Positions 1,659-58,610 of a DNA stretch of 64,000 bases are shown piece after piece. This DNA is from Escallonia rubra (Eukaryota; Streptophyta; Magnoliopsida; Escalloniales; Escalloniaceae). The translations under genes were made by a program, and so were the position numbers. The stretch lies in NCBI GenBank assembly GCA_033065855.1, contig JAVXUO010003216.1, positions 1 to 64,000 on the forward strand, given 5' to 3'. Numbering within the stretch: the stretch's first letter is position 1; each line of letters starts with the position of its first letter. The notes beneath the pieces are model-generated. The model was not told where the DNA came from. It did no database searches and saw only the letters and a list, made by a program, of their open reading frames with translations.

Positions 1659-9782
<8,124 letters not shown>

Positions 9783-14895: not shown

Positions 14896-15042
14896 ATGCT
14901 AATGAGAAAATTGAGATCAAGATATATCCAATGATCTAAAATGCTTAGAACGATTGATCTTGTACTAGCCAATTTTTTTATATTTCTAGAATACTAGACA
15001 ACTTAGTACTTTGTAATGCTCGACTTCTTAAATTTCATTTTT

Positions 15043-16019
15043 GGGCAAATTACACTTATATCCCTGAGGTTAGGGTATAATTACAGTCAAGGACAACGAG
15101 TTTCAAAATGTAACATTCCGTGACCAAACACTTTTAAAATATAGCAGCCATATCCATCCATTAGGGTTCCATCCAAAAATTGTACTTTTTGTATGATGTC
15201 ATCAATATGTATTTTTAAAATGACGATACTACCCCTTGTACTGTATATATTGAAAAATATCTGTTTATTATTATATATGATTTATTTATCAGTTTTAGTT
15301 TTAAGATATTCTTGAAACCCTAATATGCAAAGTAGGATATTCTTGAAACCCTAATTTGCTAATTAGGGTTTTATGTTCTCTCTCCCATTGCCAGTGAATC
15401 TGAAGTCCCCGCCGGCCGTCGCCTCCCTCCCCCACCCCCGCTGTCGGCAGTCCCTCCTTCCGCGGCCCCTCGCCGCCGGCAGCCCCTGTCCACACCACCC
15501 CACCACGCAAGCGATAGGTTTCGCCGCCGGCAGGCGATTCCACGCGGCGGCTTGGGGTGGGCGGTGACGAGGAAGGGGAGGTAAACGGGGTAGGCGGTGA
15601 CGGGGTGACGAGGAAGGAGGAGGCATGCGGGGTGCGGCGCCGGGGAAGGGGAGGCAAGCTGGGTACGGCGCCGGGGAAGGGGAGCAGGCGGGGTGTGGCG
15701 CCGAGGAAGGGGAGTAGGCGGGGTGCGGCGCTGGGGAAGGGAAACAGGCGGGGTGGGTGGGTGACGGGGAAGGGCGAGGGGGATGCAGATGGGGTGGGGA
15801 GGGGTGGGGGGGGGGAAGATAATGAAAATTAGGGTTTCATGTGGTCCCAGGGGCAAATCAGGGTTTCAACTTTTATTTAGGGGCAACTTGGTCTTTTTGT
15901 CAGAACCGTTAAGTATTTTTGTATTCCGTTTGTCAATGGACACAAGTGTTACATTTTGAAACTTTGTGTCCTTGCGTGTAATTACTCCCAAACCTCAGGG
16001 ACATAGGTGTAATTAGCCC
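15043..16019. mobile_element. non-autonomous MULE with GC-rich interior (Pack-MULE-like)
   Basis: Nine-base direct repeats TTCATTTTT flank the element at 15034-15042 and 16020-16028. The ends are long inverted repeats starting GGGCAAATTACAC and, from the other side, GGGCTAATTACACC, and the similarity extends more than 60 bp inward. Nine-base duplications and long inverted ends identify a Mutator-like element. The central part, about 15370-15830, is strikingly GC-rich in an AT-rich window and includes an imperfect tandem repeat of about 39 bp (15620-15790, built on 'ggcgccggggaagggga'). Its composition suggests captured host exon or CpG-rich DNA, as in Pack-MULEs, but I cannot identify a donor gene. 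The overlapping open frames here are by-products of GC richness. Confidence 0.85.
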
Positions 16020-16635
16020 TTCATTTTTTACTTGCTCAGAATGACTTTCACCTCATGCTTACTAATAAAGGATCCCCCAACTTCACGTTCCAAGGTGAAG
16101 ATGCGAGACAAGTCAGGCCATGAACCCCATGATGAAGGTGTTTTCTTATTGTCACCTGATTCTGTTTTATGCTATTCTACCTTCTTAAAAGGTAATTAGA
16201 AGATCCTTCTCTTCGAAATCAAATAAAAATTTTCGATGTCCAACAAAATTTTGTACTTTTCACCATCAGGACCCTATTCATCGGAGTTGTCCTTAAGACT
16301 TTCTGTTTTCCAAATAATCGATGTTGATCCTAATCGGATATTGTTCATGTTCGATTCTAGAACGCAATAAATACTTTGATTTAAACTAAGTAATCGACGT
16401 ACCTCTCCTTACTTGGACTTCTCTGCCATCCCAATTTTGACAAGACTTCGTTATTTTGCCTGACCTTTAGATTCATAACTAGATTGATACTTTGAATATA
16501 ATTGTGTCATATGCTGAACGATACCTCGGTATATGACCAGCAGTAACGATTGGCCCGTGCTCTATTCTCTTTCTGTAACTGCAATTTGCGTAATTGTAGA
16601 CAACTTTAGCCATGAGACACACAGACACAATTTCT

Positions 16636-17559: not shown

Positions 17560-17965
17560 TTCTGTGAGTTGTTGCATTGGAGAAGGAGAATGGTGGTAAA
17601 ATGGTATCTTCTCCGGTCCGGTTTTATAAGTGGATATACAAGGTAGATATACAAGCTGAAGTTATGGTGGAGGCACAATATGGTTATCGAGATATGATTA
17701 TAGATGTCGGACATGCCAATGTTAATTGGGGCGACTACTGCGACGATGACAGTCCCCAGCAGCCGAACGAGGGGCTCATCAGTTTTATGATTTGTTGAGA
17801 GACGCCAAAGAGCCATTGTGGGACGAAATTAGGAAAAACACACGGTTGTCTGCGGTTAGTAAGTTATTACAGCTGAAATCGGACCACGGACTGATTGAGA
17901 AAGAATTTAAGGAGTTCGTTACCTTTATCAAGAAAATTGAAACATGTCTGAATGAACTTGAAGAT
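17560..17965 (+). pseudogene. CACTA (En/Spm) Tnp2 transposase fragment
   Basis: In plus-strand frames this encodes DVGHANVNWGDYCDDD, NEGLISFMIC/LLRDAKEPLW and SAVSKLLQLKSDHGLI, then EFVTFIKKIE. This is the N-terminal region of CACTA Tnp2-type transposases, where the usual pattern is LLxDAxxPLxxGxxxxSxLSAVxxLLxLKxxxxxS. The same block occurs on the minus strand at about 57000-57350 and the two align along their length, so they belong to one family. The fragment lacks the catalytic core and any terminus, and needs at least one frame change to read through. Confidence 0.8.
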
Positions 17966-28680: not shown

Positions 28681-29275
28681 TAAATAGATGGGTAAATTAC
28701 ACTAAAACCCCCTGAGGTTTTACATAATTACACTCAACTACCGCTATCTTTAAAAATTACACTCCGTTAAAAAAAAAACTTTTTCTCTTACGGTGTTAAC
28801 GTTGGAATGCAAAAAGACATGAATACCCTCCTACGGTTTTCTTGAGATTTTGGAGGGAAAACCTGTTCTTGGGAATTTGAGGGAAACTTCTTCTCGGGAA
28901 GGAGGAAAAACAAGTTGGCAGAGAAGGAGGTAGGTAGGGGGTCACTGTGCGATCGGGGGAAGGGAAGCCTAGAAAAAAATCAGAGCCAAACATTTCACAA
29001 CCCTAATCTCATAAAAAAGACGACGCAACCAATTCCGGTGTACCTGTGCTGCGGGACGACGCAACCACTTCCGGTGAACCTGTGCTGCGGGACGACGCAA
29101 CATTTTCGGTGTACCTGTGCTGCGGGACGACAACCACTTCCGGTGAATCTGCTTGAAGGTATGTTTTCCTAACTCCTTCATGTCTTTCACGTTTTTCTCG
29201 TTATTTCCCATTTCTGATCTTTCTTCTTTTGCATGATTTCCGTAGTTGATAGCATAATGTAACCCGTAATTGGAC

Positions 29276-29997
29276 CCTGATTTAGGCCCTAATTCACGTA
29301 GACACATTTTGAACCCTAATTGGACCGTAATTGAACCAAATGAACTCTAATTGAACCATAATTGAACCGTAATGTAACCAATTGAACCCTAATTGAACCG
29401 GAATGTAACCAATTGAACCCTAATTGGATCGTAAGTGAACCAATTGAACTCTAATTGAACCATAATTGAACCGTAATGTAACCAATTGAACCCTAACTGA
29501 ACCAATTGAACCCTAATTGGACCGTAATTGAACAAATTAAACAAATTAAACCCTAATTGAACCGTAATCGAAACCAATTGAACTCTAATTGAACCATAAT
29601 TGAACCGTAATGTAACCAATTGAACCAATTGAACAAATTGAACCCTAAATGAACCTTAATTGAACAAAATGACCCTAATTGAACCAATTGAACTCTAATT
29701 GAACCCTAATTGGACCCTAATTGGACCCTAATTGAACAAATAGAAACCTAATTGAACCAATTGAACTCTAATTGAACAAATTGGACCCTAATTGAACAAA
29801 TTGAACCCTAATTGAACCCATTGAACTCTAATTGAACAAATTGAACCCTAATTGGACCTTAATTGAACCAATTGAACCCTAATTGTACCAATTGTACTCT
29901 AATTGAACAAATTGAACCCTAATTGAATATCCTAATTCACTTAGCCCCAGCTGATGAACCCTAAATTGAATGCCCTAATTGTAGCCCTAATTTAACC
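29276..29997. repeat. degenerate 'CCCTAATTGAAC' tandem tract in the MULE leader
   Basis: More than 700 bp of short units alternating 'aattgaaccctaattg', 'aattgaaccataattg' and 'ctaattggaccc', with variable spacing. It lies between the left terminal region and the transposase reading frame. Confidence 0.93.
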
Positions 29998-30025
29998 CCC
30001 TAATTATTTTTTCTTGTACTACAGA

Positions 30026-32564
30026 ATGGGCACTGAAAGGATATATGAACTGAAGGTCCACTACTGTAACATTGTTGATAGCATAGCTGATGTGGATCCT
30101 GACAGATACAGCTATATGGATCTGCTTACCGATGTAAATGATCTTATGTTGAAAGACCTCCCCTCTAGTTTAGGTATAGTTATTGCCCTATACTATACTT
30201 TGCCTGGAACTCATGTCAGGGAAGAAATAACATCTGATAGGTCCTTACTTGACATGTTTGCGCTGTATGAGAATTCAGAGGAGATTCATGTGTTCTTAGA
30301 AACTGTTGGGGTAGAACCTACAGTAGTTAGTTATCTAGAACCAAATGTAGAGGCAGCTAGAAATGACAGTAGACCTGGGACTAGTAGGGCACCTGAGAGT
30401 GAGAGTGAAGATGGCAGTGATGAGGAGTTGCACCACACTAGTGATGATTCTGATTCTGAGGATAATGATTGGGAATTAAGGGAAGAATTAAGTGAGACTG
30501 ATGAAGAGGCAAGTGATGAAGAGCCTGTGACAGAGGATGATCAATTAAGTGAACATGAGTTGTCCAACTGTGATGATGAAGATGAAAATCCTGTGTACAA
30601 GAGTGATGATAACTTGGATGTTGAAGCAGTAAATGTAGACAAATATATGAGGGGAGAGCTATTTGAACATAGGCCAGGTGAAACTATTCAACTGTACAAG
30701 GGTTTGTTGTTTGAAGATGTCAATCATTTTAGGAATACTCTGAGGGATTATTGTATTCAGACTGGGTTTAAGCTGGTCAGAGATAGGAATGAAAAGAACA
30801 GGGTTGCTACCCACTGTGGCAATCCTGGATGTAGTTGGAGGATATTTGCATCACCTATTCCTGATGGGAAAACTTACAAAATCAAGAGCTTAGGTCCTGA
30901 ACATTCTTGTGTAATGGGCATTACTAACAAGGAGGCCAATTCCACTTGGATTGCACAGAAGCTGCTTGGGCACATTAGGGGAAATCCTGATATTACCATA
31001 AATGGGCTGCAAGAGCTTTTGCTAAAAAACTATGGTGTAGAGGCCCATAGAATGCAGTTGTACAGGGCAAAAAAGAAGGCACTAGAAAAGATTGAGGGGT
31101 CTCATGCTGAGTCATATAAGAAGCTGTGGATGTATGGGCATGAGGTGGTGAAGACTAACCCTGGGAGCTTGTTCAAGCTTGAAACTCAAAGAGTTCAACC
31201 TAACCTGGATTTGCCTCACTTCCATAGGCTGTTCTTTTCATTTGCAGCTGTGCAAAATGGCTTTAAGGATGGTTGTAGGCCATTTCTTGCAGTTGATGGA
31301 TGCCATCTTAAAGGGCCTTATGGAGGTGTATTATTGTCTGCTGTGGGCTTAGATAGGAACAATGGGTTATTCCCTATGGGATTTGCTGTTGTTGAGAGTG
31401 AGAACACACAGAGTTGGAGGTTTTTCCTACATCACCTTTATACCATCATAGGTGATGGTCCTGATCCAAAGCCATGGGTGATCATGTCTGATGGACAAAA
31501 GGGTATTGAGATTGCCCTAGCAGACATTATACCACATGCAACTCATAGAAGGTGTTATAGGCATCTTTTCTGTAATTTTAGGTCTAGATACACTGGCATG
31601 AAGCTTAAAAGCTATTTTTGGTCTGCTGCCAAGGCATACAATGTGGATGACTTTAAGCTAGCTATGAGACAGATGGAAGACTTGTGACCAGAAGCAGCTG
31701 AGTGGTTAAAAGGTCATAAAGTAGAGAGCTGGGCTAGGTATACATTTGACCCTGCTGTTAAGAATGACCAGGTAACCAGTAATGTGGTGGAGTCCTTCAA
31801 CAACTGGCTAGGGAAATTGAGGGGAAAACCTGTGCTATCCATGATTGATCACATTAGAACTAGGCTGATGGTAAAGGTACATGAAAGGTTTGAAAAGGCT
31901 GCTTCTTGGGAAGAAGTAATAACTCCAAGGATAATGAAAAAATGCAAACTGGCAGTTGCTGAATCTAGGTGCTGTAAAATAGTCATGGGGGGGGGGGGGT
32001 ACAGAGTTTGAGGTATCTGACCTTGGGAAGGTGCATGTTGTGAACTTAGTGAGGATAAATTGTTGTTGTAGGGTTTGGGATCTTACAGGCATACCTTGCA
32101 AGCATGCAACAACATGCATCAACACCAGGAGATTGAATGTGGTTGAGTTTGTGGATAGGTGCTACAGCAGGAATACTTATTTGAAAACTTATGGTCATGT
32201 TATGCACCCACTGCATGATGAGACCCACTGGGGGCCAGCTCCAAGGGATCCTTTGCAACCTCCCCCTTTTAGGAGGTTGCCTGGAAGACCAAGAAAGGAA
32301 AGGAAGAGGGCAGCAGATGAACCTGCTAGGGAAGGAAAAAGGTCATGCACTCTGAAGTGTGGAAATTGTAAGCAATTTGGGCATAATAAAAGGACCTGCC
32401 AACGGGCACCAGTGGGAAGCAATAGAAATGCCAATGTTACAAGACCAGTGAGGGGGGGGGGGGAGGTAGGGGCAGTCAAGGTAGGGGCAGTCAAGGTAGG
32501 GGCAATCAAGGCAGAGGCAGTGAAGCTGGGTGCAGTTAGATTGGGTGCAGCCAAGTTAGCATGA
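30026..32564 (+). pseudogene. MuDR-family MULE transposase, two lesions
   Basis: The enzyme would cut and paste the surrounding MULE through its inverted ends. The first ATG is at 30026, just after a possible splice acceptor (TTGTACTACAG). An N-terminal PB1-like region of about 100 residues is followed by an acidic linker. Next come the MuDR DNA-binding region (FRNTLRDYCIQTGFKLV, then HCGNPGCSWRIFAS), the MULE catalytic domain (FLAVDGCHLKGPYGG and WVIMSDGQKGIEIA carry the two Asp of the DDE triad), a SWIM finger (CCCRVWDLTGIPCKHA) and a CCHC knuckle (CGNCKQFGHNKRTC). The order and length are complete for the family. An in-frame TGA at 31685-31687 interrupts the catalytic region, and a 13-G run at 31987-31999 puts the next part out of frame. 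Twelve G would keep frame, so that lesion could be a homopolymer error. Confidence 0.95.
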
Positions 32565-32739
32565 ATGAGCAGGTAACCACTGATTTCTTTTACTTGTTTT
32601 TCAGACTTTAACTTATTATTTTTTTCCTCAAGTTTTCCCAATCTGTTTTTTTTTTTAACAGGGAGGACCTGAGGTGGTGGCTAAAACCCAGGAGTCACAG
32701 CCTTGAAGCTGCAGAGAAGGGTAAGGGTATTTGTAGATA

Positions 32740-32935
32740 TGAAATGACTTTTGTGAAGCTGTGAATGAAGATTCTTTTGTGAAGCTAGTTGAAGACAGAT
32801 TGAAGATTATTTTGTGAAGCTGTGAATGATGATTATTTTGTGAAGCTAGTTGAAGATAGATTGAAGATTATTTTGTGAAGCTAACTGAAGATATTGTGAA
32901 GATTATTTTGCGAAGCTGAATGAAGAAATTGTGAA
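32740..32935 (+). repeat. tandem 'gattattttgtgaagct' repeats in MULE
   Basis: Three to four imperfect units of about 60 bp containing 'gaagattattttgtgaagct' and 'agttgaagatagattg' follow the transposase stop. They may belong to its 3' untranslated region. No function is evident. Confidence 0.8.
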
Positions 32936-33803
32936 TACCTTGTGACTGCATACAAGTTTTTGAAGTTGAAGTCCAAGGAATATGTTAGCTTTAGGTCCCA
33001 AATATGTGACAGACAATGTGTACACTTTGTAAAGTTTAGGTTACAGTCAACACATGCACAAGTTTGGATTATGTAAGCTTAGATCTTGGGGATGATGTAA
33101 ACTGTCTATTTTTTGATAATGAAACCATGGTTGTATTAAATCTCAGTGCTTTTTGTAATTTACCAATTAGTTTGTGTGCACACTACAGTTTGGTGCAATG
33201 TGTTTGTGTATTTGATTTGTTGCACTTGGTTGTCTTCATTTGGTCTGTTGCATTGAGTTTATGCAGTGTGTTGCAATACAGCAGTGGGTTGCACTGTATT
33301 GGTGCATACTGTTGTGGTGGTGCATTTTGTTTATGGAGTTGGTTGCAATATGTTGGTGATACCCTGGCATGATTTGGGTGCAGTTTGTTTGTTCACTAGT
33401 TTTGAGCAGGGTCACTCCAATTTAACAATTCAACAGTTTGTTTGTTCACATGATTTGGTGATACCCTGGCATGATTTGGTTGCAATATGTTGATCATGTC
33501 CTGATTTGCTGTTTTTCAGAAAGGTCACTCCAATTCAACAATTCATGCATCATATTCATCCACAGCATGTCATGCGCAAAAATAGTTACTTTTCAAATTA
33601 CACAGAACTCCCATGAGGTTTGCATTAATTACACTGAGCTCCCATTACGAAAAAGATCAGAGAAGGCCATACAGAGAAAACCCTAGAACATCACATTCAT
33701 TCACCTTCTTCATACAAAGTCATTACAAAATATTACAAAAGAGCTCTGGAAAGGAAAATGAAGCCCACATTACTTGCAGTACATAAACACACACCCAAAT
33801 TCC

Positions 33804-34226
33804 TCATTTGCGGACAACAAAAAACATCACCATAATACACATCCATGAGGAAATTAGAGAAGAAATAACCAACAACTTCAGCATTGCCTGATTAGCTTCA
33901 ATCAATTGTAATTTTTGACCGGTTACAGCTCCATTTCCATCAAAAGAGTGCATCTTTGCCTCTTCATTGATCTCGGGCCTTTGAATCTCTTCAGAAAACT
34001 CAAATGAACATTTCATTAACCTTCCACTTGGCTTCATTGTTGCTCTATCAGGTGTGCACCAAGTGAACATTTTACATCCACCACTTGCACAAGAGAAGAA
34101 CAACTTACCTTTACTTGGCTTCTCATTAGATTCAACAATCCTCAAGTTTGCCCTCTTTCTACACCAACAATTCTTGTACCTAAACCTTAGATCCAACCAC
34201 TCTTCATTACTTTCTGACCAAGACAT
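33804..34226 (-). CDS. GRF-type zinc finger, C-terminal membrane-anchored small protein of the MULE
   Basis: An uninterrupted frame of 140 codons with a true ATG at 34226. Residues about 20-60 fit a GRF zinc finger, a nucleic-acid-binding fold: CWCRKRANLRIV, GKLFFSCASGGCKMFTWC. A short acidic, polar middle follows. The last 25 residues form a hydrophobic segment (LLVISSLISSWMC through MFFVVRK), predicted to be a tail-anchored membrane helix. It lies inside the MULE, convergent with the transposase and ending about 1.2 kb beyond the transposase stop, with its promoter presumably in or near the right inverted repeat. The arrangement recalls mudrB in maize MuDR, which is also transcribed toward the transposase gene, but no sequence similarity to mudrB is claimed. 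Small GRF-finger ORFs are common in plant genome annotations. Its role in transposition is unknown. Confidence 0.8.
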   Translation of the reverse strand: MSWSESNEEWLDLRFRYKNCWCRKRANLRIVESNEKPSKGKLFFSCASGGCKMFTWCTPDRATMKPSGRLMKCSFEFSEEIQRPEINEEAKMHSFDGNGAVTGQKLQLIEANQAMLKLLVISSLISSWMCIMVMFFVVRK

Positions 34227-34583
34227 TGTTACCCCTTAAATTGATGGGTCTGATTTTACTTTAGGGATAAAAGGGCATGAGCAGAAGGTGGAGGAAGGGA
34301 AGAAGCTGCTGTGGAGTTGGCTGAAATTATGTAAAAACCCACATTACAAGAAGATCACACAGGGGAGTAAAGGACAAAGGGGGGTATTTTGGGTATGAAA
34401 ATTGCATAAAAGAGTGTGTCAGGGAATCTCCTCACGGAGTTGGACGGCCCGTTAAATCTGTGTAGTTGTGTGTAATGCGGGTACAAACCTTAGGGGGCGG
34501 AGTGTAATTTTTAAAGATAGCAGTAGTTGAGTGTAATTATGTAAAACCTCAGGGGGTTTTAGTGTAATTTACCCTAAACAGAT

Positions 34584-36590: not shown

Positions 36591-36907
36591 TATAATAGGT
36601 GCTCTCTTGGTTGGATGAACGCCTAGATTAAATTATTACTGATTGGATTCATCTTGAGTAATTTTAGTTTTCAGTTTGTACCATTTGCTCATTATTTGTT
36701 TTCGCAAGTTCTTATCAATATCTTCCTTAACCTTCTCCTGCTAACTGGTTGCAGGTGGCGTCAGTCCTCTTCTACGAACACCTTAATATGCTCTTTTTCC
36801 CTTAAGTAATGCTCCCGTGAGCAACGGGATCATTAATTTATGATGAAAACCACAGAAGAAGAGTTCGATCCATAAGTTCCTGATGAATTACATTTCTCAA
36901 GCCCAGG

Positions 36908-39900
36908 TTAAGCTGAGCAGTGCTTCCGGGGCTTCTTGGGGCTGGGCTCGCCCCCCTTACCAGATCCCGAGGTCCTCTCATGCTTCTTGGGGCTGGGCTC
37001 CTCCCCCTCACCAGATCCCACGGTCCCCTCATGCTTCTTGGGGTTGGACTCCTCCCCCTCACCAGATCCCGAGGTCCCCGCATTCCCGTTTTTGTTATAT
37101 TTGTCCTCGAAAGAGCCTTTGAACTGCATCAGTGCTTCATCCTCCGTTTCATACTGTCCTTGGCACCCCTTAGTTTGGAATAGCTTCGGAACAATGCCTT
37201 CGATGTTGGCCATTTGGGAGCCTTTGAACTGCATCAGTGCTTCATCCTCCTTTTCATACTGTCCTTGGCACCCCTTAGTTTCGAATAGCTTCGGAACAAT
37301 GCCTTTGATGTTGGCCGTTTTCGAATCCGTCCCAAGGCAAAAGTACTGAGACATGTCTGTCCAATCTGTAAAAAGAACATAAATAAAATATATAAGAGTG
37401 AAGCCGGTAAATACTGTATCACCACATTTTCTTAATTAATGCTGAAACATATCATATCAAATCGAGGGAGGCAGATGCCAAATAGGCCCCAGTAGGAAGA
37501 AGCTCAGGCGAAAGAATTATCGAGAGCACAGAAAAGGAACTTAATTGTAGCTCTGAAACAAATTTAGCAATGAACCGCACAAAACAATCAATGGCAACCA
37601 ATCAACCATCCCTAAAACAAGTGAAAGAAAAAAAAAAGGCCAGAGGGGCAAAGTTGCTGCAGCACTGATCAATGACCACAAAGCATTTGCTATGAACTTC
37701 CAGCCAAATAATTTACATCAAGCAAATAGGTGCAACTGCCCATTATTTATACATGTCAAGTACTAGGAACAGTGACATTTGCATTTTTGGACTCCATGAT
37801 GTCCGTTTCAACTTCGCAACTCATTTTCCTGTCTATCGTGGAGTTCAACCGTGGAAAGGAGAACGCAGATATCAGCCTCCTTTATGTTATGATGTATTGA
37901 AAGCAATTACAAGTGGGCCAAAAATAGCGAAGTTATCATGGTGATAGGTAGGTACGTGCCCCCAATGTAAGCTACACAGTTCGCACTGATCATGTTTCTG
38001 TTAGTACTAGCAATATTAATCGGTCAAATTCTCACGACATCACGGCATACTTTAGGCAACTGGCCGTCTTAGGACATATAAGGCGATGCAAAGTTGCCAC
38101 TGATGAATACACAGACAAGAGTAGTGCTATATATCCCCTAATCTCCAACCAAATTAGGGGTCATCGTGTCAAATACTCCTTGCGTTGATCCTGTAAACTA
38201 GAACAGTCACAAGCAAGATCCTCACATTCGGATCCCCAAAAAGTGAAGCTCAATCAACATATCCCAAAACAAATGAGAGTGAACAAGCTAGTTTACTCAA
38301 ATATCCCAGCTTAATAAGCAACTAGAAGAACAAGGCTAGCAACTTTGACAACTTCGATCTTTCTTAAAAAAAAACTGCTAGAGAGAGAAAGTCTACCTTC
38401 TCTCTAAATCTGTGAGAAATTAAAAAAAATAGGAATCAAATTTGCAAATTGACGACTTTGATGATGGAATGATGGCACTGAAAGCAAATTCCCGAAGATC
38501 TGATCGATTACGAGGACCCCCAAGGGATCCATTTGCACAAGATTTTGTGGGAAAAGATTGGCAATCGGTGCATGGAAATTTAAGTAAGGTACATACAAAC
38601 CCTAGCATTCCAATAAATCTGGGCGAGAATGAATTCAAAGATGTCAGCGACCTCAGGCCAGAGAAAATCCAAAATTCTCAGATCGGAATTGAATCCAGTT
38701 CTGATTCTGATGGAAATGACAGAATTAATGGAAAACTTATGCAGTTAATAAGGCAGATAGAGGAATTAAGACAAGAAAATGTGGATTTGCGTAAACAAAT
38801 CTGTGCGCAAAACTCCATTAATGCAGTTGGTGCAGTAAATGAAGCAAATCTCTGCAACAATCAAGACCAAGATGCATTGAAATTGTCGAGAGAAGTTCAA
38901 AGGTTGGAGAAGAGTACAGATGACGCGCGGGCTGACGAGGCAGTATATGTCCAGTCAGCTATGCCAAGTGGGGGAAAAAAGGATGACATGGCATCCACAT
39001 CACTGCTTAAGAAAACAAGTGAGAATTCAAGCAGTGACTCAGCGGGAAAATTAGAGGAATTTCCTCCCCTAACATCCAAAGGTAAACAGAACTCTCCAAA
39101 CCAAGGATTGGTTGAAAATCAACAGATGATTTCGTACGCAGCAATCATCAAGCCAAACAAGGAACTGGTGGAAAACAAATTGCAATATATTCCGCCACAG
39201 GAAGTTCAGGGGAAGAAGGGAGTTGAATACTCCCATGAAGATGTTGAAACTGAGCTAAAGAAATGGGAAAATGCTGTAATTACATATGTGGTAGGAGCTA
39301 AACCGCCATTTCATGTCATGCAAGGTTTCCTGACACGAAAAATGGAAGAGATTTGGTAAGTTTTCTATGAGTTTTGTCAAGTCTGGTATATTCATTGTTA
39401 ACTTTGAAGATGGAGTGGCAAAACAACAAGTAATGGATCAGGGGCCATGGTTTTTTGATAATAAACCACTAGTTACAAAGCTGTGGACTCCAGGAATGTC
39501 TATAGAGAGAAAGGATCTAAATTCTATGCCGGTATGGGTAAGATTACCTAATCTACCTTTGCAATTCTGGTCTCAAAGGAGTCGAATAATTAGCACTATT
39601 GGTACACCATTATTCATGGATGGGGTGACAGCATCCAAGGAAAGGCTAAGCTATAAAAGCATTTGTGTTGAGGTCGGCAACTACCAGAGTATATACCTAT
39701 AAAAGGACCTCAGGGGGAAATAAGAGAACAAAAGATAGAATATGAATGGCTTCCTGTGAAGTGTTTTCATTGTAATGTGTTTGGACACAAAGGAGAAAAT
39801 TGCTATAAAAAAACCCAAAATGCAACAGATGTGGAAACCAAAAGCAACTGGAAATGATAAAGTCCACACCAGCAAGGAAATGGGGAAAGACAAAAGTGAA

Positions 39901-42900
39901 AGTGTCTCTCAATATAGGCCTCAAAATGTGCTGCAACCAGAAGGTCTGGTGATTTCTAACAGGTATAATGTCTTTAACCAAACTGAGATGATTTTGGAAG
40001 ACAATGCTGAGCCTGAATCTTCTGTTAATATTTCATCAAAGGAATCTGAAGGAGGTAAGGAAAAGGGGATGGAAAGGCAGAACAGTACTGCTGCTAGAAA
40101 AGGTAGAGGTACTAAAAACAAATGACCATCTTAGCAAGTTGGAACATCAGAGGCTTCAATCACTCTGTGAAGCAAGCTGATGTAAAAAAAGCAATTAAGC
40201 AAAACAAAGTGGAAATCATAGGGTTGCTTGAGACTAGAGTCAGGGGGGAATTTATTCCAAGAATCACCAGTAAATGGAGTAAAGAATGGAGTTTTATATA
40301 CTCAACTAATACCAAAGGAGTATCTAGACTATGGGTGGGATGGCAAAGTAGCAAGTTTACTATGGAAGTATTCAATAAATCTTCTCAGCATATCACTGGT
40401 AAAGTAACCCCCTCTGGAAGAAGTGAATTTTTCTATGTCACTTTTGTTTATGCAAATAACAAAGGACATAAAAGAAGAAACCTATGGATGCAGATAATGA
40501 GAGAGGCTAGCAGCATTGGGAATTGGCCTTGGATGGTGGCTGGAGACTTTAATGTAGTAAGGTCCTCACAGGAAAAACAAGGAGGTATATCCATCAATAG
40601 AGGAGACATATTGGAATTCAATCAATGTTTATGCCAAGCACAGCTTGAAGATATGAATACCAAGGGGCTGTTGTTCACATGGTGCAACAAAAGAGAAGAA
40701 AATTTGATCAGATGCAGACTTGACAGGGCAATGCAAAATGAAGGCTGGCTCAATAAATATCCTAACACACAAGTGAATGTTCAAGAACCAGGTATTTCTG
40801 ACCATTCTTTGTTAGTAATAATAGAAAATTCAGAACATTGGGAAGGTAGAAGACCATTCAAATTCTTTAATTACTGGATGAGGCATAGGAGATTCAAAGA
40901 GATCATATTATCTGTCTGGAATGAAGGAGTCTCTGGGAATGCAAGTTATAGGCTGTATTATAAACTCGAAAAATTAAAACCCCTTTTGAAAAAGCTCAAC
41001 AAAGAGTCTTATAGCAATAATTTTTAGAACTCCAAGAGACTCAAAGGAAAGTGCTACAAAATGGGGATCAGGATTTAATCCAGCAGGAGAAAGAAATTCA
41101 CAAGGAATATTATCTTTTAGTACAAGCTGAAGAAGCCTTTTATTATCAAAAAGCTAGGACCAAACACTTGAAGTTGGGAGATGGTAATACAGCATACTTT
41201 CATAGACAAGTTCAAGTTCATAAATCTCATAACCAGATTTTGTCTATAATGAATGCTGAGGGAGTACAGATTCATGGGACTAGAAATGTCCATCAAGCTG
41301 CTATTGAGCACTTCCAAAAATTCTTAGGGACAGCTGTGAACAGGCCTCATAACATGAAGAATAGGCTATTGGAGATTATCAAATGTAAAGTATCTCAACA
41401 TGATCAGAATATACTGTGTGCACCAGTAACTGGGAAGGAAATCAAAGATGCTATGTTTTCCATGAAAACAAACAAGGCACCTGGCCCTGATGGGTATAGT
41501 GCAGAATTCTTCCAGGACAATTGGGAAATAGTGGGGAAGGATGTAATGGACACAGTGCTGGAATTTTTCAACAAAGGAAAAGGCCTACAGTTTCTCAATA
41601 ACACAGCATTAACACTCATTCCTAAGGTAACATGCCCTGCTACTATGAAGGATTTCAGACCTATTGCATGTTGCAATGTGGTTTACAAATGCATATCTCA
41701 GATCCTTTGCTCCAGAATCAAGTTAGTCTTGCCAATGCTCATCAATTCTAGGCAGTCTGCTTTTGTGAAAACCAGGAGTATTGCTGATAATATTTTACTA
41801 ATGCAAGAGTTATTAAAGAATTATCACAAGGTAATTGGGGAGCCTAGGTGTGTGATGAAGATAGATCTCCAAAAAGCCTATGACTCAGTAGGATAGGAGT
41901 TCTTGAAGACCATTATGGAGGTAATGCAATTTCCTCAAAGATTTGTGGACTGGATTATGAAGTGTGTAACTACTGCTAAATTTTCTATCAACTTAAATGG
42001 ATGTGTGGAGGGCTTCTTTGCTAGTGAAAAGGGATTGAGGCAAGGGGATCCCATCTCACCCTATCTATTTTTGTTAGTTATGGAGGGATTAGCTGGTTTG
42101 ATTGACTATTATACTGCACAAAATGGTTTCAAGTATCATCCAAGGTGCAAGGATCTGCAAAGAACACATTTATGCTTTGCTGATGACTTGTTCTTAATGT
42201 CAAGGGCAGATCAATACTCCTTAATGTTGCTTGAACAGGCAATGCAAGAGTTCAAGAGTTTGAACAACTCTCTGGGCTATCTCCAAACCTTAACAAAAGC
42301 TCTATTTATATAGCTGGAGTCATAGATGAAAGGATAAAACAGGAGTTGGCAGAACAAATGGGAATTCCTCTTGGATATCTACCAGTTACTTATCTTGGAG
42401 TTCCATTAATATCCACAAAATTACAATCCAAAGATTGTGTGGTGTTGATTGAAAAACTGACTAAGAGGATTGATAGCTGGGCTGCCAAATGCTTATCCTA
42501 TGCAGGGAGGATTCAATTGGCTATGTCTGTATTGATGAGTATGCAACTATACTGGTGTTCCATCTTTATTCTACCTCAGAAAATTATCAAGTAAATTGAG
42601 TGCAAAATAAGAGCTTTTATATGGCATGGGAAGGATGTAAAGTGCACTAGTGCTAAAGTGGTCTGGAAAGATTTGTGTCTTCGAAAACAAGAAGGTGGAC
42701 TGGGGTTGAAGAGAATAGGGGAATGGAACAAAGCAGCAATATGCAAACATCTATGGGATCTAGCTCACAAAAAAGACTCGCTTTGGGTTAAGTGGTGCCA
42801 TACCTACGTTATCAAAGATCAACACTTATGGACATTCAAACCTCCTGCTACAATTTCATGGACATGGTGCAAAATGATGAAACTTAGACAGAAAATGCAG

Positions 42901-44677
42901 CAATCATGTACCTACCAAATTGGGAATGGCAGATCCACATGGTTGTGGTTGGATAAATGGGTACCAGGTGGTCCATTAATTCAGCAATTTGGACAAAGGA
43001 TCGTATATGATGCTGGGATGAGCTGGAATGCTAAAGTTGCAGACATCATTACAGGTAGCAACTGGACTACATTGCCACTAAGATCCCAAGCTTTGCAGCA
43101 AATGCATGATATAATCAGTAAACAGGCATTACCTAGGACTGAGTCTAATGATAAAATCATTTGGGATTTACACCCCAGTGGGGAATTCACCGTACAATCA
43201 GCATGGAATTGGTTGAGAACTAAAGCATCTAAAGCTGAATGGTGGAAGATAATCTGGTTCACTGGGCATATACCAAAATGCTCTGTAATATTATGGATGG
43301 TATGCAAGGGAGGCATAAGAACAAGAGATAAACTAAAAAAAATGGAAAATTGTCCAAGATGATAGCTGCAGCCTATGCCAATCACAGAAGGAGACCATAG
43401 ACCATTTGTTTGTGCAATGTGCCTATGCTAAAGAAGTCTGGGAATATATCTTTACAAAGATTGGAAAAAGACTACCATTGGTTTCTTGGCAACATCTAAT
43501 GCAGTTTGCAATGCCACATTTTAGAGGGAAGAGTTTCCGAGCTACTCTCTTAAAACTCTCACTTGCTGTTACAATCTATGGGATATGGATGGAGAGAAAC
43601 ACAAGGGTTTTTGAGCAAAAAACAGGCTACACCACAAGGATGTGCTCATGTCATACAACAACGGGTGAAGTTTAGAGTGGAAGCTGGAACAAGATACCAA
43701 AAACAGAGAAGAATGAAGAATTATGTACTGCTTGGGGGATAAATGAGGGAATTTTCATGTAAATAGGTAGAAGAGAGGATATACCATAAAAGTAGTAGCA
43801 ATTTTGTCTTTGTAAATTGGAAACAAATGTACATGTTATGAGCTTCAATGAAATAAAAGGACATCTGACCAAAAAAAAAAAAAAAAACTTTTACAACTTC
43901 ATCCAATCTTCTTTTTCAGTCACAAAAAGTTGTTGCCATTAATATTTGGGGCCACATTTATGTAGGAGCTAAAGTTCGTTCCACATTTATTAACAACACT
44001 CTATCGACAATTGTAGAGACTAGAGATAGTGGCAGCATCTCCCTAAAGGTGCTGCCATTAGTGCTACGAATGACCTGTAGCGACGATGTTTATTCGTTAC
44101 CTTGGATTTCAGGCGAAGTGGCCGTAATAAACCAACCGGGAGGCAAAAGCACCACCGCCGGGCGATCCTTGGTCAGCAGCTCGTCCGGCACGATGACCGC
44201 ATCTGTAAGCGTCGAGCCCGGCAAGATAATCTTACCAACAAAACTCCGACCCTTAACATAATCAAGCACTTCACTGACCCGATTCAGCTTCACCAGCATC
44301 TCCTTAATATCACTGCTCTGCTCCAGCTGCAATTGGACCTGATAGAACCTCAGCAGATCAGCTTTGTAGCAAGTGAGCTCGTCGGAGTACCCGGACCTCT
44401 TGATGATACTCCACGAGGATATCTCTGAACACCTTTCGACGAGCTCTTTCCCTCTGTTTAGCAGATCTATGTAGGGCTTGGTCTTTTCGGCACGGTCCAG
44501 CTCGTTGTTGTACTTCTCTATCTCAAGCAACTTTGGCTCAATAGACTGCAGGATTTCTATCAGGGCGCCCAATTCGGGCTTGAATTCGATGTTTTTGGTT
44601 GCCATGTCTGTGAGTGATGTCTGTAGTTTGCCCATCACGGCGCCGACGATGCCTCCTTCGACTAGTCCGGCGGCCAT
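36908..44677 (-). CDS. RPW8/HR-like immunity protein with C-terminal tandem repeats (two-exon model)
   Basis: Exon 1 (44101-44677) starts at the ATG giving MAAGLVEGGIVGAVM and encodes an RPW8 domain of about 150 residues. The domain has an N-terminal membrane-like segment and a helical region with LLEIEKYNNELDR, GKELVERCSEISSW and LLRFYQVQLQLEQ. RPW8 domains act at membranes in defence and form the N-terminus of helper NLRs; here no NB-ARC follows. Exon 1 ends in a strong donor (CCAAG|GTAACG) in phase 1. Without splicing the frame stops three codons later. A compatible acceptor (TTTTTACAG) opens exon 2 (36908-37365). It continues the frame as DWTDMSQYFCLG, then two 35-residue repeats (NI-GIVPKLF-TKGCQGQYE) and three 17-residue repeats (GSGEGEE-PKKHE) before stop, 344 residues in all. 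Arabidopsis RPW8.1 and HR4 also carry variable C-terminal repeats. The 6.7-kb intron holds a LINE. The exon 2 link is inferred. Confidence 0.68.
37012..37340 (-). repeat. in-frame coding repeats of the RPW8-like second exon
   Basis: Two copies of a 105-bp unit start near 37113 and 37218 ('gagcctttgaactgcatcag' marks each on the plus strand). Shorter 51-bp units ('catgcttcttggggctgg') continue below to about 36930. Both unit lengths are multiples of three, so copy-number change would keep the reading frame. Confidence 0.88.
37366..38340. other. intron sequence left of the LINE
   Basis: Under the RPW8 model this is intron. No other coding feature is supported; a 63-codon frame at 37753-37944 has no recognisable domain. 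Confidence 0.4.
38469..40125 (+). pseudogene. LINE ORF1 (DUF4283 plus CCHC knuckle), frameshifted
   Basis: ORF1 proteins coat the LINE RNA. The first ATG is at 38469. A predicted coiled coil (LMQLIRQIEELRQENVDLRK) lies near residue 100. The DUF4283 domain follows (KWENAVITYVVGAKPPFHVM, then DQGPWFF and WVRLPNLPLQFW), and a zinc knuckle (CFHCNVFGHKGENC) comes near 39770. Frame changes are needed near 39350, 39680 and 39810, the last in an A-rich run. The ORF1 stop TGA (40123-40125) overlaps the ORF2 start ATG (40122-40124) as ATGA. Confidence 0.9.
40122..43675 (+). pseudogene. LINE ORF2 (endonuclease, reverse transcriptase, zf-RVT), broken
   Basis: ORF2 nicks target DNA and primes reverse transcription. 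The APE-type endonuclease spans about 40122-40830 with ASWNIRG, GLLETRV, VAGDFNVV and SDHSLL. The reverse transcriptase spans about 41450-42300 with NKAPGPDGYSAEFF, KIDLQKAYDSV, GLRQGDPISPYLF and the catalytic CFADDLFLM (FADD variant of YADD). A C-terminal zf-RVT region (IWDLHPSGEFTVQSAW, then DHLFVQCAYAKEVW) ends near 43600. Breaks seen are frame changes near 41030, 42280 and 43370 and stops at 41894-41896 (expected Trp) and 42592-42594. Confidence 0.95.
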
Positions 44678-45936: not shown

Positions 45937-48900
45937 GCATTTTACCCTTACCTATTTGCTTACGACAGCGTTGGGCTGAAAGGAGGAATAAAAGGGAGGG
46001 ATCTGAGGATGCAGGGATCTACAAAATAAGAATAATGGAGTCTGTGCAAGTACTCTAAAGTTTGGTCCCAAGAATGCACAAATGTATAAAAGAAGAAGAA
46101 GGAATGCTGTCAGGGAAGAAAATGAAGGGGGTTGCAAAATATCTTTACGGTATGAGAAAAGTAAGTGAGAGAAAAGAACCCTGATAGCTTATTACGGTTA
46201 AGAATCCAAGGCAGAAAAACAATGGCTTGGATAATAGTCTTTTCATCCCTTATAAATCGCTCAGTTTGATTTTGCACGCATATTAATATTGTATGTTTCT
46301 CATTTTATCCTTTAAAAAAAAAGAGGGAAGAGAGTGAATCAGAAGAGAGAAATGTATAAAGAGGATAAATATGTAAAAATATCTTCTAAATCATTCTTAA
46401 TTTGAAAGTTATCAAATTTTGTGGGATGCCCCAAAAAGAAAATATGATCAATTATGAAGGACGGAAAGAGTAATAAAGACAAGACATCTAACTCTTGAGC
46501 ACCTTGGGATGAGCGCTGAAAATGGTTGCACGTTTACATACATCTATCGGTGAAACAACTGTTGAAATTGAGAAGGGAGGCTTACGTGGCACTCTGAGTC
46601 TAACGTGGCACTCATATAACAATTCAAATAGCATGACAATATTGTCACACTAGTTTGGGAGGCATGGTTTACACCAAGTAAAATTACAACATATTGGCTT
46701 GATAGGCTGATCCATCTAAAGGGCATCAAGCACGCCGCGTGATCAAAGAGCTGAAATCGGCCAGACTTAAGGCTGATTTGTTCTAGAGCACGTTCGTGAT
46801 TGTCAAATCAAAGGCAATAACGGCTACCTGAAGCGTAGCGAGTTCTGAGCAAAGGAAGGACACATGGCTCCCTCATACAGAGCCTAAAGTTTCAACTATG
46901 TGACATGTCATCGAAAGAGGAGCAGTAAATAATGTGGCAAAAGCTAGATGAAGGTTTAGATAGGAAGGTAAAACGAGGTCTAATCCAGCCTCGACACGTG
47001 GCAAAATGGATCAAACAAAGAAACTCAATGAGCAAAATGGTAAAACATGCATGATCCGACATGTGGTAGCTCCACATTGGATCGTCGTGAGGGTGAATGA
47101 TTATAACTTAGTTATAAAAGATATGAATGGTGTCTAAATTAATCCTATTCAGCACCAAATGGAGGAAGCCAGAACATGCATACTCGTCAAAATGCCAAAT
47201 TGTTTAATTAAATGGGAACGTACTTTAGACATGGTCTCATCAGAACCTAGCACCCCGTGCACCATAAAATATTCATTTTTACCCAAGGGCATGTTCCTTG
47301 GCATTTTATAAGCAATCACGATACCTTCTGATTCGGGTAATATATACGTGGTACTGTCCACTTGCACTAAAGAATACTAATGCTAATGAAGTTCAAGGCC
47401 TTTTTTGTGACCTAAAAACATTTGCTCCACCTTAATTCCACAGGTACTACAAAAAGGCACTAAAGGCACTTTTAGTGCCTGTTCGAAATTGATTTTAGGA
47501 TGATCAAACAAAATTTTAATCTAGTCTAGATTAGATCAGGTTGCTAAATATTTGGCAAACATTTATAACTGATTAAATCAGCTTTCAAAAGCTAAAAATT
47601 GATTAAATCTTAATTCAAGAAAACGAGGATTATGAATTAATCACTTTTGCATAATTATATTTAATCAAGTAAAATACCAGAGTATTCCTATTGATTACAA
47701 AGACCTTTAATATATTTTATTTAAGCACTAAATTCTATATCTTTTTGCCGTATCGAAACTGATAATAGTACTTTTATCCAAACATCGTCTATAGGTTAAA
47801 ACTGATTTTGCTGAAAAGAGATTAAAGCTAATTTTGAAAGTTGATTAAGATTAAATCTGAAATTTGCTTTTAAGAAATCAATCTCAGACAGGCTCTTCAA
47901 AGTATTATAATAGCAAAACATGACGTGTTAATGTCCCACATCGACGATACATCATGATTGAGATTGGTTTTTATATCTGATGGGCTTCTCCTTTTATACT
48001 TTTGGGTCGGACACCAGGTTTTAACATAATACCAGAACTAGGCTCTGCCCGAGGCTCATGGACTTTAAATGGGCAGGGGTAAATATTCCACATCGATTAT
48101 ACATGGGATCGAACCTTGGGATTACAATTACCTCATATTCGACGCTACGCGTGAAGGCAAGTATAAATATTCCACATCGACTATACATGGGATCGAGATC
48201 AGTTCTTGTACCTAGTGAACTTCTCCTCCTCTTGAGTGGACATTAGGCTTTAACAATGCGAATGACCAAAATCAATATATATCTCACGGTCTAAAATGTT
48301 TAGAACAATTGTTCTTATACTAGCCAATATTTTTTCCATTTCACCTCACATGTAAAATCACGTGCATGGTACATAACCAATTAACGTGCATCTTGGCTTT
48401 GGGACTTGAGAAATCAAAGGTGAAAATTCAGAACTTTTGTTTGGAGTTCCCACGACCACGATGAATTTGGCTAAGGGTGTAAAATACATGAGAAACTTTG
48501 TGATTAATTTTTATCAAAATTGCCCACGAAACTACTAAATTAGCTTTTATATAATCTACTAAACTAGGTTCCCCCGACTCCACAGTTTTGAGGTTGAGAT
48601 ACTAGACACATCAAACAACGATGAAGGTGCTTTGTTACTTTGTTATACCGTCACTCATTTTTGTTTTATGTATCAAATTATCTAACTTCTTAAAAGATAA
48701 TTAGAGGGTCTTTCTCTTTGAAATCTAATAAATGAGTTGTTCTCCAACTAAATTTTGAACTCTTGCTATCCGAACCCTATACATCGGAGTTTAGTCCCTT
48801 AGACTTATGCTAATAATCGATGTTGTTTCAGATTAGAGATTGTTCGCTTTTGCTCCTAAGACGCTAAAAATCATTTAACATAAAGCAAGTAATATTCGTA

Positions 48901-49100
48901 TGTTTGCTTGTTTGGACTTTCCGTCTTTCAAATTTTGAGCAGACTCTGTTACTCGGCTTGGCCTTTAGATTAATAATAACTAGACTGCATACCCTAAAAG
49001 TAATTGTGTCATACAATCTTTTGTTGTATTCTCTTTCTACAATTGCTCACTTTGTGTAATGGAAGGTAACTTTACCAAGTAGACACACATATCTCCAATT
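45937..49100 (+). repeat. diverged repeat segment, copy 2
   Basis: This is the counterpart of 12935-16635, in the same orientation and block order. Here it begins near 'acctatttgcttacgac' and ends near 'agtagacacacat'. It shares the TRIM at the corresponding place but lacks the GC-rich MULE of copy 1. No intact gene lies within it. Confidence 0.75.
47936..48255 (+). mobile_element. TRIM LTR fossil, counterpart of 14538-14895
   Basis: The first LTR-like repeat runs from about 47936 to 48026 (ending TTTTAACA) and the last ends at 48255 (CTTTAACA). A further related block ('aaatattccacatcga') is repeated internally. The layout matches the copy at 14.5 kb. It is non-coding and old. Confidence 0.65.
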
Positions 49101-51189: not shown

Positions 51190-51817
51190 CTATGACGGCG
51201 ATGGCTATGAGGTTGTGAGCCCATCTCGGTACGAGGGCCGAAGCCCCCTTGTTGATTGAGACGGCGATGGCTATAAGGTTGTGAGCCCATCCCGGTACGA
51301 GGCTGAAGCCCCCCTTTTGATTGAGACGGCGATGGCGATAAGGTTGTGAGCCCATCTCGGTACGAGGCCGAAGCCCCCATTTTGATTGAGACGGCGATGG
51401 CTATAAGGTTGTGAGCCCATCCCGGTACGAGGCCAAAGCCCCCATTTTGATTGAGACGGCGATGGCTATAAGGTTGTGAGCCCATCCCGGTACGAGGCCG
51501 AAGCCCCCCTTTTGATTGAGACGGCGATGGCGATAAGGTTGTGAGCCATCTCGGTACGAGGCCGAAGCCCCCATTTTGATTGAGACGGCGATGGCTATAA
51601 GGTTGTGAGCCCATCCCGGTACGAGGCCAAAGCCCTCATTTTGATTGAGACGGCGATGGCTATAAGGTTGTGAGCCCATCCCGGTACGAGGCCGAAGCAC
51701 CCCTTGTGATTGAGACGGCGATGGCTATAAGGTTGTGAGCCCATCCCGGTACGAGGCCGAAGCCCCCCTTGTGATTGAGACGGCGATGGCTATAAGGTTA
51801 TGAGCCCATCCCGGTAG
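51190..51817. repeat. 65-bp minisatellite, about 9.6 copies
   Basis: The block 'gagacggcgatggctataag' recurs at near-constant spacing. ACGGC falls at 51195, 51261, 51326, 51391, 51456, 51521, 51585, 51650, 51715 and 51780. Units also contain 'gttgtgagcccatcccggta' and 'cgaggccgaagccccc'. The frames open across it arise from the repeat; 65 is not a multiple of three. Confidence 0.97.
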
Positions 51818-51829
51818 CATGCAACATGA

Positions 51830-52500
51830 TTGTGGCGCATGAGCGCGGTGCCTATAGCACGAAACAATACCTGGTGCCTGGGGCACGTGTTGTGAAAGTG
51901 GTGCGGCGACGATCGTCGCGAAGCAATACTTGGTGCCAGGGCACGTATCATGAGAACGGCGCAGGGGCGAGGCGACGAACGTCGCGGAGCAATATTTGGT
52001 GCCGGGGCACGTATCATGAGAATGGCGCAAGGGCGCGGCGACGAACGTCGCGGAGCAATACTTGGTGCCGGGGGCACGTGTTATGAAAGTGGTGCGACGA
52101 AGAACGTCGCGAAGCAATACTTGGCGCCGGGGGCACGTATCATGACGATGGCGCGAGGGCGCGGCGACGAACGTCGCGGAGCAATATTTGGTGCCGGGGC
52201 ACGTATCATGAGAATGGCGCGAGGGCGCGGCGACGAACGTCGCGGAGCAATACTTGGTGCCGGGGGCACGTGTTATGAAAGTGGTGCGACGACGAACGTC
52301 GCGAAGCAATACTTGGCGCCGGGGGCACGTATCATGACGATGGCGCGAGGGCGCGGCGACGAACGTCGCGGAGCAATATTTGGTGCCGGGGCACGTATCA
52401 TGAGAATGGCGCGAGGGCGCGGCGACGAACGTCGCGGAGCAATACTTGGTGCCGGGGGCACGTATCATGACGATGGCGCTCGGGCGCGCATCGGGTGTCC
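51830..52500. repeat. higher-order tandem array, 192-bp unit of three subunits
   Basis: Subunits of about 59-67 bp carry 'gcgacgaacgtcgcg' and 'ggcacgtatcatga'. GACGAACG falls at 51974, 52040, 52166, 52232, 52291, 52358 and 52424. The step from 52166 to 52358 is exactly 192 bp and the three-subunit pattern (ending 'tatcatgacgatg', 'tatcatgagaatg', 'tgttatgaaagtg') repeats. Since 192 is a multiple of three, long frames stay open on both strands without implying a gene. Confidence 0.95.
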
Positions 52501-55689: not shown

Positions 55690-57499
55690 CAGTACAGTAC
55701 TTACTGATGTATCATCCTTCTGCTAACTATCCAAGGATGCAGTTCATGGTATACACCCAACTGTTGTAGAGCCTTTCTTGCTTTAAGATGATTTATCGAT
55801 TTTCTCTTGACATTCATCACTGTGTTGGACACATTATCTAAAACATTCTTCTCAATGTGCATCACATCCATGTTGTTTTGAATAATGAGTGTCCTCCAGT
55901 AGTCTAACTCCCAGAAAATAAATTGTTTCCTCTAGTTGTGCTCTTTCACTTATCCTGAATCTCCTTATTCAGCACACCCTTGTCGTATGGTATGTTAGTA
56001 TCAAGTGCCTTAAGGTGTGAAAGCATTTCATCACCAAATGGATAGACCAATGTGACAACCTCATGCTCTATTGTTCTGTCGAATTTATCCTTCTGCCAGT
56101 GAAACTGATGGTCTGGTGGCAACATCTGACAGTGACATCCGAACTAAGAGAGCTTTCTACCGTGCTTTAACATATGACCGGGGTTCACGCTCATACAAGT
56201 AGGGCATGTTAATTTTCGCGCTTCGGCCACATGTCATTCTCGATGTAGGAAAATCATGTATAGCCTACATCAAAGTAGCCCTCATCTGAAAGTTCTATTT
56301 AAGAGATACATCATAAGTTTTGACTCCACGATCCCATAACTATTTGTGCTCATCAATCAACGGCCTTAAATACACATATATGTCCTTACTAGGACTCCTT
56401 GGCCCCGGATAAGCAACGACAAAAACATCTACGTCTTCTTCATGCAAATGCCAGGTGTAAGGCTATACGAGACAATAATAACAGGTCATGTGGAGTAAGG
56501 CATGCTAGACTGTCCGAAAGGATTGAACCCATCAGTTACCAAACCAAGTCTAACATTCCAAACTTCCTGAGGAAAGGTTGGATGCTTGCGGTCAAACTCC
56601 TTCCACGCCTCTCCTTCAGCGGGGTGTGTCATCACATCGGCATCTTTGCTACGAGTCTCACAGTGAGCCCTCATATGTTCAGCCATATTGGAGGAGTAGT
56701 ACATCCTTTGAAGCCTTAGCGTAACCAGAAAATATCGCAATACCTTCTATAAAATATTTTTCTTTTTCTTTTTGTCCGGTCTATTTCTCGAATGATCATA
56801 TATTGGACACTTTGTCAAGTCCTTATTCTTTTTCCATAACAATACACAGTCGTTACTGCATACATCCATCCGCTCATGACCCAATCCAAGTTTCATCGTA
56901 ATCTTCCTCGCATCATAGTACGACGGTGGCAGCTTCTCAATTTCCGGCAAAATTTCCTTGATAAAAGTAACGAACTCATTACATTCTTTCTCACTCTGCC
57001 GGTGGTCCAATTACAACTGTAATAACCTATTAACCACAAACAACCATGTGTGTTTCTTAATTCCATCCCAAAATGGCTCTTCGATGTCTCTTAACAAATC
57101 ATAAAACTGATGAGCACCCTCGTTCGGCTGTTGGGTATGGTCTCGCCACCATAATGACCCCAATCAACACTAGCATGCCCAGCATCTATAATCATATCTC
57201 AATAGTTTTACTGTGCCTCCACCCTAACTTCTGCTTGACTAGTCGGGCTGGATGACAATACTACTGTTTTTCCGTGATGCGTCCACCGCGTGTATCCATT
57301 CATAAAACTGTACTGGAAAGATGTCATTTTACCACCATTCTTTTTCTTCAATCCAACAACTCACAATTACTGCCGGACACTTTATCTTCTCAAAGTCAAC
57401 ATATGCAGGATGCGCGTTAGCGAAATCGAGAAATTCATCGACGCAATCCTCAAAATCACCATCATTTTTCTTTTTCATCCACCTTCCATCAACCGACAT
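55690..57499 (-). pseudogene. CACTA Tnp2 transposase relic
   Basis: The start MSVDGRWMKKKNDGDFED (57499) leads into a Transpos_assoc-type domain (FLDFANAHP). In changing frames the Tnp2 body follows: EFVTFIKEILPEIEKLPPSY, KLGLGHERMDVCSNDCVLLW, MRYFLVTLRLQRMYYSSNMA with EHMRAH, HPAEGEAWKEFD, and VRLGLVTDGFNPFGQ. Further on come pieces matching the HGRK/GH-R--LP-DHPFR and LRHN-DVMHIEKNV regions, the latter in 'GHSLFKTTWM'. Order and spacing are those of a complete transposase, but many stops and frame changes are needed, so the gene is old and dead. Confidence 0.88.
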
Positions 57500-58249: not shown

Positions 58250-58610
58250 ATATGGTTTACGGTTTAGTTAGGGTTAGGGTTGTATTTAGGCTTATTATGG
58301 TTAATTAAGGATGTATTAGGGTTTAATTAGGCTAGTTAGGGTCTAATTAGGGTTAATTAGGATTAATCATGGTTCTTTAGGACTCATTAGGGTTTATTAC
58401 GGCTAATTAGGATTTAATTAGGGTAATTGGGGTCCTATTAGTTTAACTAAGATTTGCTAATTAGGATTTAATCAGGGGCAATTAGGGTTAATTAAGATTT
58501 AATTAAGAGTCAATTAAGGTTAATCAGTGTTAATTAAGGCTAATTAGGGCTAGTTAAACTTAGGCTAATTACTGTTCATAAGGCTAATTACAGTTTAGTT
58601 AGGGTTAGTT
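58250..58610. repeat. degenerate 'TTAGGGTTAATTAGG' tract in the CACTA leader
   Basis: Irregular short units such as 'ttagggtttaattagg', 'ctaattagggttaattagg' and 'gttagggttagggttg' run for about 350 bp. The resemblance to telomere repeat is superficial because spacing and sequence vary from unit to unit. Confidence 0.88.

Follow-up and report, generated by a model that had tools for sequence, protein, structure and literature searches.

A putative two-exon RPW8-type gene with a repeat tail and a LINE-enlarged intron in Escallonia rubra

Layout of the locus

The first 64,000 nucleotides of contig JAVXUO010003216.1 from the Escallonia rubra assembly GCA_033065855.1 (hereafter the window) contain, on the minus strand, an exon encoding an RPW8 domain and, some 6.7 kb further along the same strand, an open reading frame (ORF) with two sets of in-frame repeats. 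The sequence between them is occupied mostly by a long interspersed nuclear element (LINE). Judged from the sequence, the two coding segments probably belong to a single two-exon gene for an RPW8-type protein that has no nucleotide-binding domain, bears its repeat tail on exon 2 and has an intron enlarged by the LINE. The features of this locus, in the direction of the gene, are as follows:

44101-44677, minus strand: exon 1, from the ATG to residue 192, with the RPW8 domain at residues 5-139 and about 50 more residues behind it
44090-44100, minus strand: donor GTAACG; the unspliced protein stops after GNE (195 residues)
37366-44100, minus strand: putative intron, 6735 bp today and 1190 bp before the LINE
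43886-43900, no strand assigned: target-site duplication copy beside the poly(A) end of the LINE, 15 bp, 1 mismatch to the other copy
38356-43885, plus strand, antisense to the gene: decayed plant L1-type LINE with DUF4283, a CCHC-like knuckle, endonuclease, reverse transcriptase, zf-RVT and a poly(A) end
38341-38355, no strand assigned: target-site duplication copy at the 5' end of the LINE, 15 bp
36908-37365, minus strand: putative exon 2 with the repeat tail, 152 codons and a stop, proposed from its acceptor, phase and GC content of 0.531
37106-37315, minus strand: two 35-residue repeats, head to tail, 105 bp each
36926-37078, minus strand: three 17-residue repeats, Gly/Ser/Glu-rich with Pro-Lys-Lys, 51 bp each, followed by a basic end

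Exon 1 carries a near-complete RPW8 domain

The 577-bp exon 1 consists of 192 codons plus one base and carries a true RPW8 domain. Its product matched the Pfam family RPW8 (PF05659) with an E-value of 3.9e-28 and a score of 98.3 bits (cut-off 30.4). The match takes in profile positions 3-138 of 139 and residues 5-139 of the product, and the whole domain lies uninterrupted within this one exon. An earlier reading of the same DNA (the original prediction), made without database searches, had described an intact RPW8-domain exon ending in a donor, which is in agreement with the Pfam match and with the GTAACG at position 44100. The GC content of exon 1 is 0.516, compared with 0.367 upstream and 0.393 just downstream. 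When the exon 1 product was compared with the PDB using phmmer, the three best matches were all to Arabidopsis NRG1.1 (At5g66900; E 2.3e-5 to 4.5e-4). The remaining 54 of the 57 matches, mostly to influenza hemagglutinin, had E-values of 0.034 and worse and were taken as chance. The usual hydropathy cut-off for a transmembrane stretch is 1.6; the highest value over 19 residues in the exon 1 protein was 1.34 (residues 145-163), and residues 1-19 reached 1.11.

The absence of an NB-ARC domain, also part of the original prediction, was borne out in the window. Five nucleotide-binding leucine-rich repeat (NLR) motif patterns found no match in its six frames, and a control run shows that the scan works, since it recovered 53 occurrences of GK[TS] and the peptides of both exons. 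Likewise, a Pfam scan of 26 ORFs, part of those in the window, showed no NB-ARC domain. RPW8-only genes have been described, and fission of RPW8-NBS genes (NBS, nucleotide-binding site) has been proposed as their origin (available part of PMC5039405). No second RPW8 copy was found in the window, where tblastn with both exons returned the exons themselves and matches with E-values of 4.0 or worse. In a viral contig collection no relatives were confirmed (31 pattern matches for exon 1 and 5 for exon 2).

Candidate splice sites could join the two open frames

Exon 1 ends in the donor CAAG/GTAACG, and reading through it adds only GNE before a stop. Immediately before position 37365 lies the acceptor TTTATGTTCTTTTTACAG, with 12/14 pyrimidines, and joining G+AT across the splice rebuilds codon 193 as Asp, so that the phases match. 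A phase-compatible acceptor 6.7 kb away on the same strand, as originally proposed, is thus present. In the interval that starts 60 bases past the donor and reaches to position 36900, 47 acceptors passed a simple pyrimidine test. The longest phase-matched frame among these 47 was the one at 37365 (152 codons). Within the best 15 of the 47, the 14 other sites all lie inside the LINE and open at most 84 codons. Across the whole window there were 423 such acceptors, of which 11 opened at least 100 codons and 3 at least 150. These 11 comprise two in MULE (Mutator-like element) transposase (30174 and 31248), one at a calreticulin exon (7558), 37365 itself, two antisense to exon 2 (36964 and 37015) and five that are unexplained; long chance frames therefore do occur. 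The splice itself we infer from this anatomy, and we consider it quite likely that exon 1 (ending at 44101) is joined to exon 2 (starting at 37365).

A decayed LINE fills most of the putative intron

The element between the exons matched the Pfam families DUF4283 (E 1.3e-25), RVT_1 (2.2e-12 and 1.6e-14), Exo_endo_phos (2.9e-11) and zf-RVT (8.1e-12), and its CCHC-like knuckle was read by eye from the translation. The combination of DUF4283, endonuclease, reverse transcriptase, poly(A) end and target-site duplication is what we take to be the hallmark set of a plant L1 element. Its coding sequence is scattered across several frames that are broken by stops, and the LINE therefore looks dead. One further match on a LINE frame, to Gemini_AL1 (E 0.042), was under its cut-off and was set aside as chance.

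Of the 6.7 kb that separate the exons, the LINE, which was absent from the original prediction, makes up about 5.5 kb. Subtracting it and one copy of the target-site duplication leaves, by arithmetic, an intron of 1190 bp. Since the gap consists mostly of the inserted LINE, the distance between the exons is no argument against their being joined. Before the antisense insertion of an L1 LINE, the intron would thus have measured about 1.2 kb.

Two sets of repeats in the second open frame

The exon 2 frame ends in a TAA that finishes at 36908, and the GC content steps from 0.395 in the intron to 0.531 in exon 2 and 0.343 in the 3' flank. AATAAA occurs 3' of exon 2 at 36568 and 36446. The predicted in-frame repeats of 2 x 35 and 3 x 17 residues were recovered by Tandem Repeats Finder as a tract with period 105 at 37113-37320 (2.0 copies, 96% matches) and one with period 51 at 36931-37083 (3.0 copies, 89% matches), and both periods are divisible by three. 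In the joined frame the 35-residue units occupy 37315-37211 and 37210-37106, and the 17-residue units 37078-37028, 37027-36977 and 36976-36926. A protein search with the exon 2 product, which had been named as a check on the original prediction, gave a best E-value of 0.32 in Pfam and nothing at E 10 in the PDB. A model of the tail from its single sequence was poor (mean predicted local distance difference test, pLDDT, of 49.1) and contained four short helices.

Alternatives to a spliced two-exon gene

A number of observations weigh against the two-exon gene. On the side of the domain, the model of the exon 1 protein has helices over residues 10-140 and is poor (mean pLDDT 54.3). A Foldseek search with it found nothing at E <= 0.001, and ranked the CC-R domain of NRG1.1 second (E 0.95, probability 0.77) behind an unrelated chain.

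Other such observations concern the end of the transcript. The sequence that separates exon 1 from the LINE contains AATAAA at 44094 and 43991, where a transcript could end early; three more copies in gene sense lie within the LINE (42570, 41144 and 40256). These signals, together with the stop three codons beyond the donor, would fit a functional product made from exon 1 alone, in which, once the LINE had inserted, transcripts that are polyadenylated early or retain the intron yield a 195-residue RPW8-only protein and exon 2 is a relic or serves a minor isoform. Such a protein would be in line with the RPW8-only genes mentioned above, and the COPIA-R7 retrotransposon insertion that affects the NLR gene RPP7 provides a precedent (available part of PMC7529245). 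What speaks against this explanation is that the acceptor of exon 2 is well formed and in phase, that its frame is the longest, and that this frame has stayed open while the nearby LINE has decayed badly. We regard it as unlikely.

The start of exon 2 gives further grounds for doubt. In a looser list of acceptors outside the LINE, position 37413 (4/14 pyrimidines) leads into the exon 2 frame and opens 168 codons. This is longer than the frame from 37365, so that the exact exon 2 acceptor is uncertain. The same list holds 37356 and 37302, both within exon 2, which give 149 and 131 codons. Moreover, there is an ATG within exon 2 itself, at 37354 and 11 bases past the acceptor, from which 148 codons stay open as far as the stop. 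Exon 2 could accordingly be part of another transcript, either as a small independent gene starting at this ATG or as an exon of an unannotated neighbour, and the tail repeats have no sequence link to RPW8 proteins. This is very improbable in our view: the interval's best acceptor is directly followed by this frame, in the phase of exon 1, and every other listed phase-matched AG site between the LINE and exon 2, apart from the same-frame 37413, opens at most 65 codons.

The remaining observations against the two-exon gene come from the exon 2 frame. Alternative frames of exon 2 are long and open too (two antisense, of 145 and 88 codons, and one sense, of 96), and openness alone is therefore not strong evidence. 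Counted as amino-acid-changing versus silent codon differences between repeat cores in the proposed frame, the 35-residue pair gave 3/0 and the 17-residue pairs 3/0, 7/0 and 6/0, and silent differences were found only at the borders of the 35-residue units. With almost every difference between the copies altering an amino acid, the repeats show no trace of purifying selection. In sense frame 1 all three differences between the 35-residue units are silent, yet that frame contains stops. The lack of constraint between copies, the three other open frames and the five unexplained sites among the 11 acceptors with at least 100 codons speak for an open frame that arose by accident in a GC-rich stretch of tandem repeats. 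To such an accident we attach hardly any probability. When the 83 non-redundant exon 2 codons were shuffled by composition 5000 times, the frame stayed open in 40 cases, and the acceptor, the phase and the GC step coincide here with two unequal repeat periods, each divisible by three.

Other features of the window

Several elements lie outside the RPW8 locus. Calreticulin exons are found at 3865-7568 on the minus strand (Pfam E 7.7e-14 and 3.8e-13). A complete-looking MULE at 28681-34583 has 77-bp inverted ends that are 98.7% identical and a 9-bp target duplication with 1 mismatch. Its frames match MuDR/MULE transposase and SWIM, with a zinc knuckle match under the cut-off, and a minus-strand ORF inside it has a GRF zinc finger match that is likewise under the cut-off (E 2.7e-4). 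Degenerate telomere-like arrays of the AACCCTAATTG and TTAGGGTTTAA types occur in opposite orientation at 29309-29927, within the MULE, and at 58274-58557. The idea that these arrays mark the ends of one large gene-capturing element was rejected because the first sits inside a MULE that has its own inverted ends and target duplication.

A colinear direct duplication links 12996-16511 and 46055-49013, about 33 kb apart, in pieces that are 72-81% identical; translated matches fall on both strands with no single clear reading frame. That it represents a duplicated RPW8 locus was ruled out, as tblastn found no RPW8 sequence there. An inverted duplication (17563-17938 and 56951-57365, 82-83% identical) overlaps an ORF with a weak Transpos_assoc match (E 0.004, under the cut-off). 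Two large tandem arrays with units of 65 and 66 bp (9.6 and 9.0 copies) occupy 51194-52488, and Rfam gave no match over the window.

A possible role for the repeat tail

In immune cell death, RPW8 and NRG1 proteins form oligomers and work at membranes. In the favoured two-exon gene, exon 1 would supply the whole N-terminal RPW8 (CC-R) helical domain, which may be expected to act as it does in those proteins. Exon 2, once spliced and translated, would add a 152-residue tail of two near-identical 35-residue units, three 17-residue low-complexity charged units and a basic end, and the copy number of these repeats may change through slippage or unequal exchange. By analogy with the C-terminal repeats of RPW8.1 and HR4, the tail would most likely tune or restrain the activation of the RPW8 domain and its choice of partners. 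Which RPW8 proteins of Arabidopsis trigger NLR-dependent autoimmunity is jointly predicted by two features, the count of C-terminal RPW8/HR repeats and a short end piece, and both alter necrosis in RPW8.1 and HR4 (available text of PMC6684095).

A bolder proposal, which strikes us as quite unlikely, is that an RPW8 protein independently gained a tunable repeat tail on an exon of its own, unrelated to the Arabidopsis repeats. The intronic LINE would then make the locus a switch between a bare 195-residue form, cut before the LINE, and a 344-residue repeat form, and the excess of amino-acid-changing differences would reflect diversifying selection. For a claim of diversifying selection on the repeats, the numbers are too small.

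In the favoured two-exon gene, the RPW8 domain would carry a second kind of repeat tail, unrelated to the first. This would suggest that having such a tail matters rather than its particular sequence, and would provide an independent test of the control that tails have over the RPW8 domain.

Comparison with known systems

The RNL helper NLR NRG1.1 (At5g66900) resembles the present gene in its N-terminal RPW8/CC-R domain (phmmer E 2.3e-5), and differs in that no NB-ARC motif was found here within the 64-kb window. The Brassica napus HR genes BnHRa-d also belong to the RPW8 family and have two exons and one intron. Their intron, however, follows 293-296 bp of coding sequence and by this length must cut the domain, whereas exon 1 is 577 bp here and holds the whole domain (B. 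napus data from the available part of PMC4955382). The label 'HR-like' in the original prediction thus fits loosely: the intron position differs, and among solved structures it is the CC-R domain of NRG1.1 that comes nearest.

RPP7 with COPIA-R7 shares with our locus a retroelement in an immune gene and a possible effect on transcript ends, although the element is a Copia there and a LINE here. The COPIA-R7 effect on RPP7 reportedly works via polyadenylation inside an intron.

In architecture, the gene is like Arabidopsis RPW8.1 and HR4, which have an RPW8 domain, no NB-ARC, and a C-terminus made of short tandem repeats plus a short end piece. Among the papers listed by the literature searches, no repeat-tailed RPW8 protein besides these two turned up, a result that does not prove that none has been published. 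The repeats of RPW8.1 and HR4 are 21 and 14 residues long, respectively, while those found here are 35 and 17 residues long and unrelated (available text of PMC6684095, also the source of the unit sequences). Aligned to exon 1, the published units fall on residues 116-138, the end of the RPW8 domain, which is single-copy here and helical in the low-confidence model. The HR4 unit scored 36 (0/1000 shuffles as good) and the RPW8.1 unit 31 (6/1000). Against exon 2 the scores were 25 (9/1000) and 19 (405/1000), respectively, with 40/1000 for a doubled HR4 unit, and the sole match there was WTD, which adjoins the splice site and is not part of the repeats. Because the Arabidopsis units match the end of the domain and not the tail repeats, the tail is not a lengthened Arabidopsis repeat set. 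The repeats are therefore unlike the published RPW8.1 and HR4 ones, as had been suggested, and the earlier wording of a tail 'expanded by repeats' holds for C-terminal repeats in frame but not for an expansion of the Arabidopsis units. The piece that is repeated in Arabidopsis appears instead to resemble the RPW8 domain's own end, a comparison made with the short units only.

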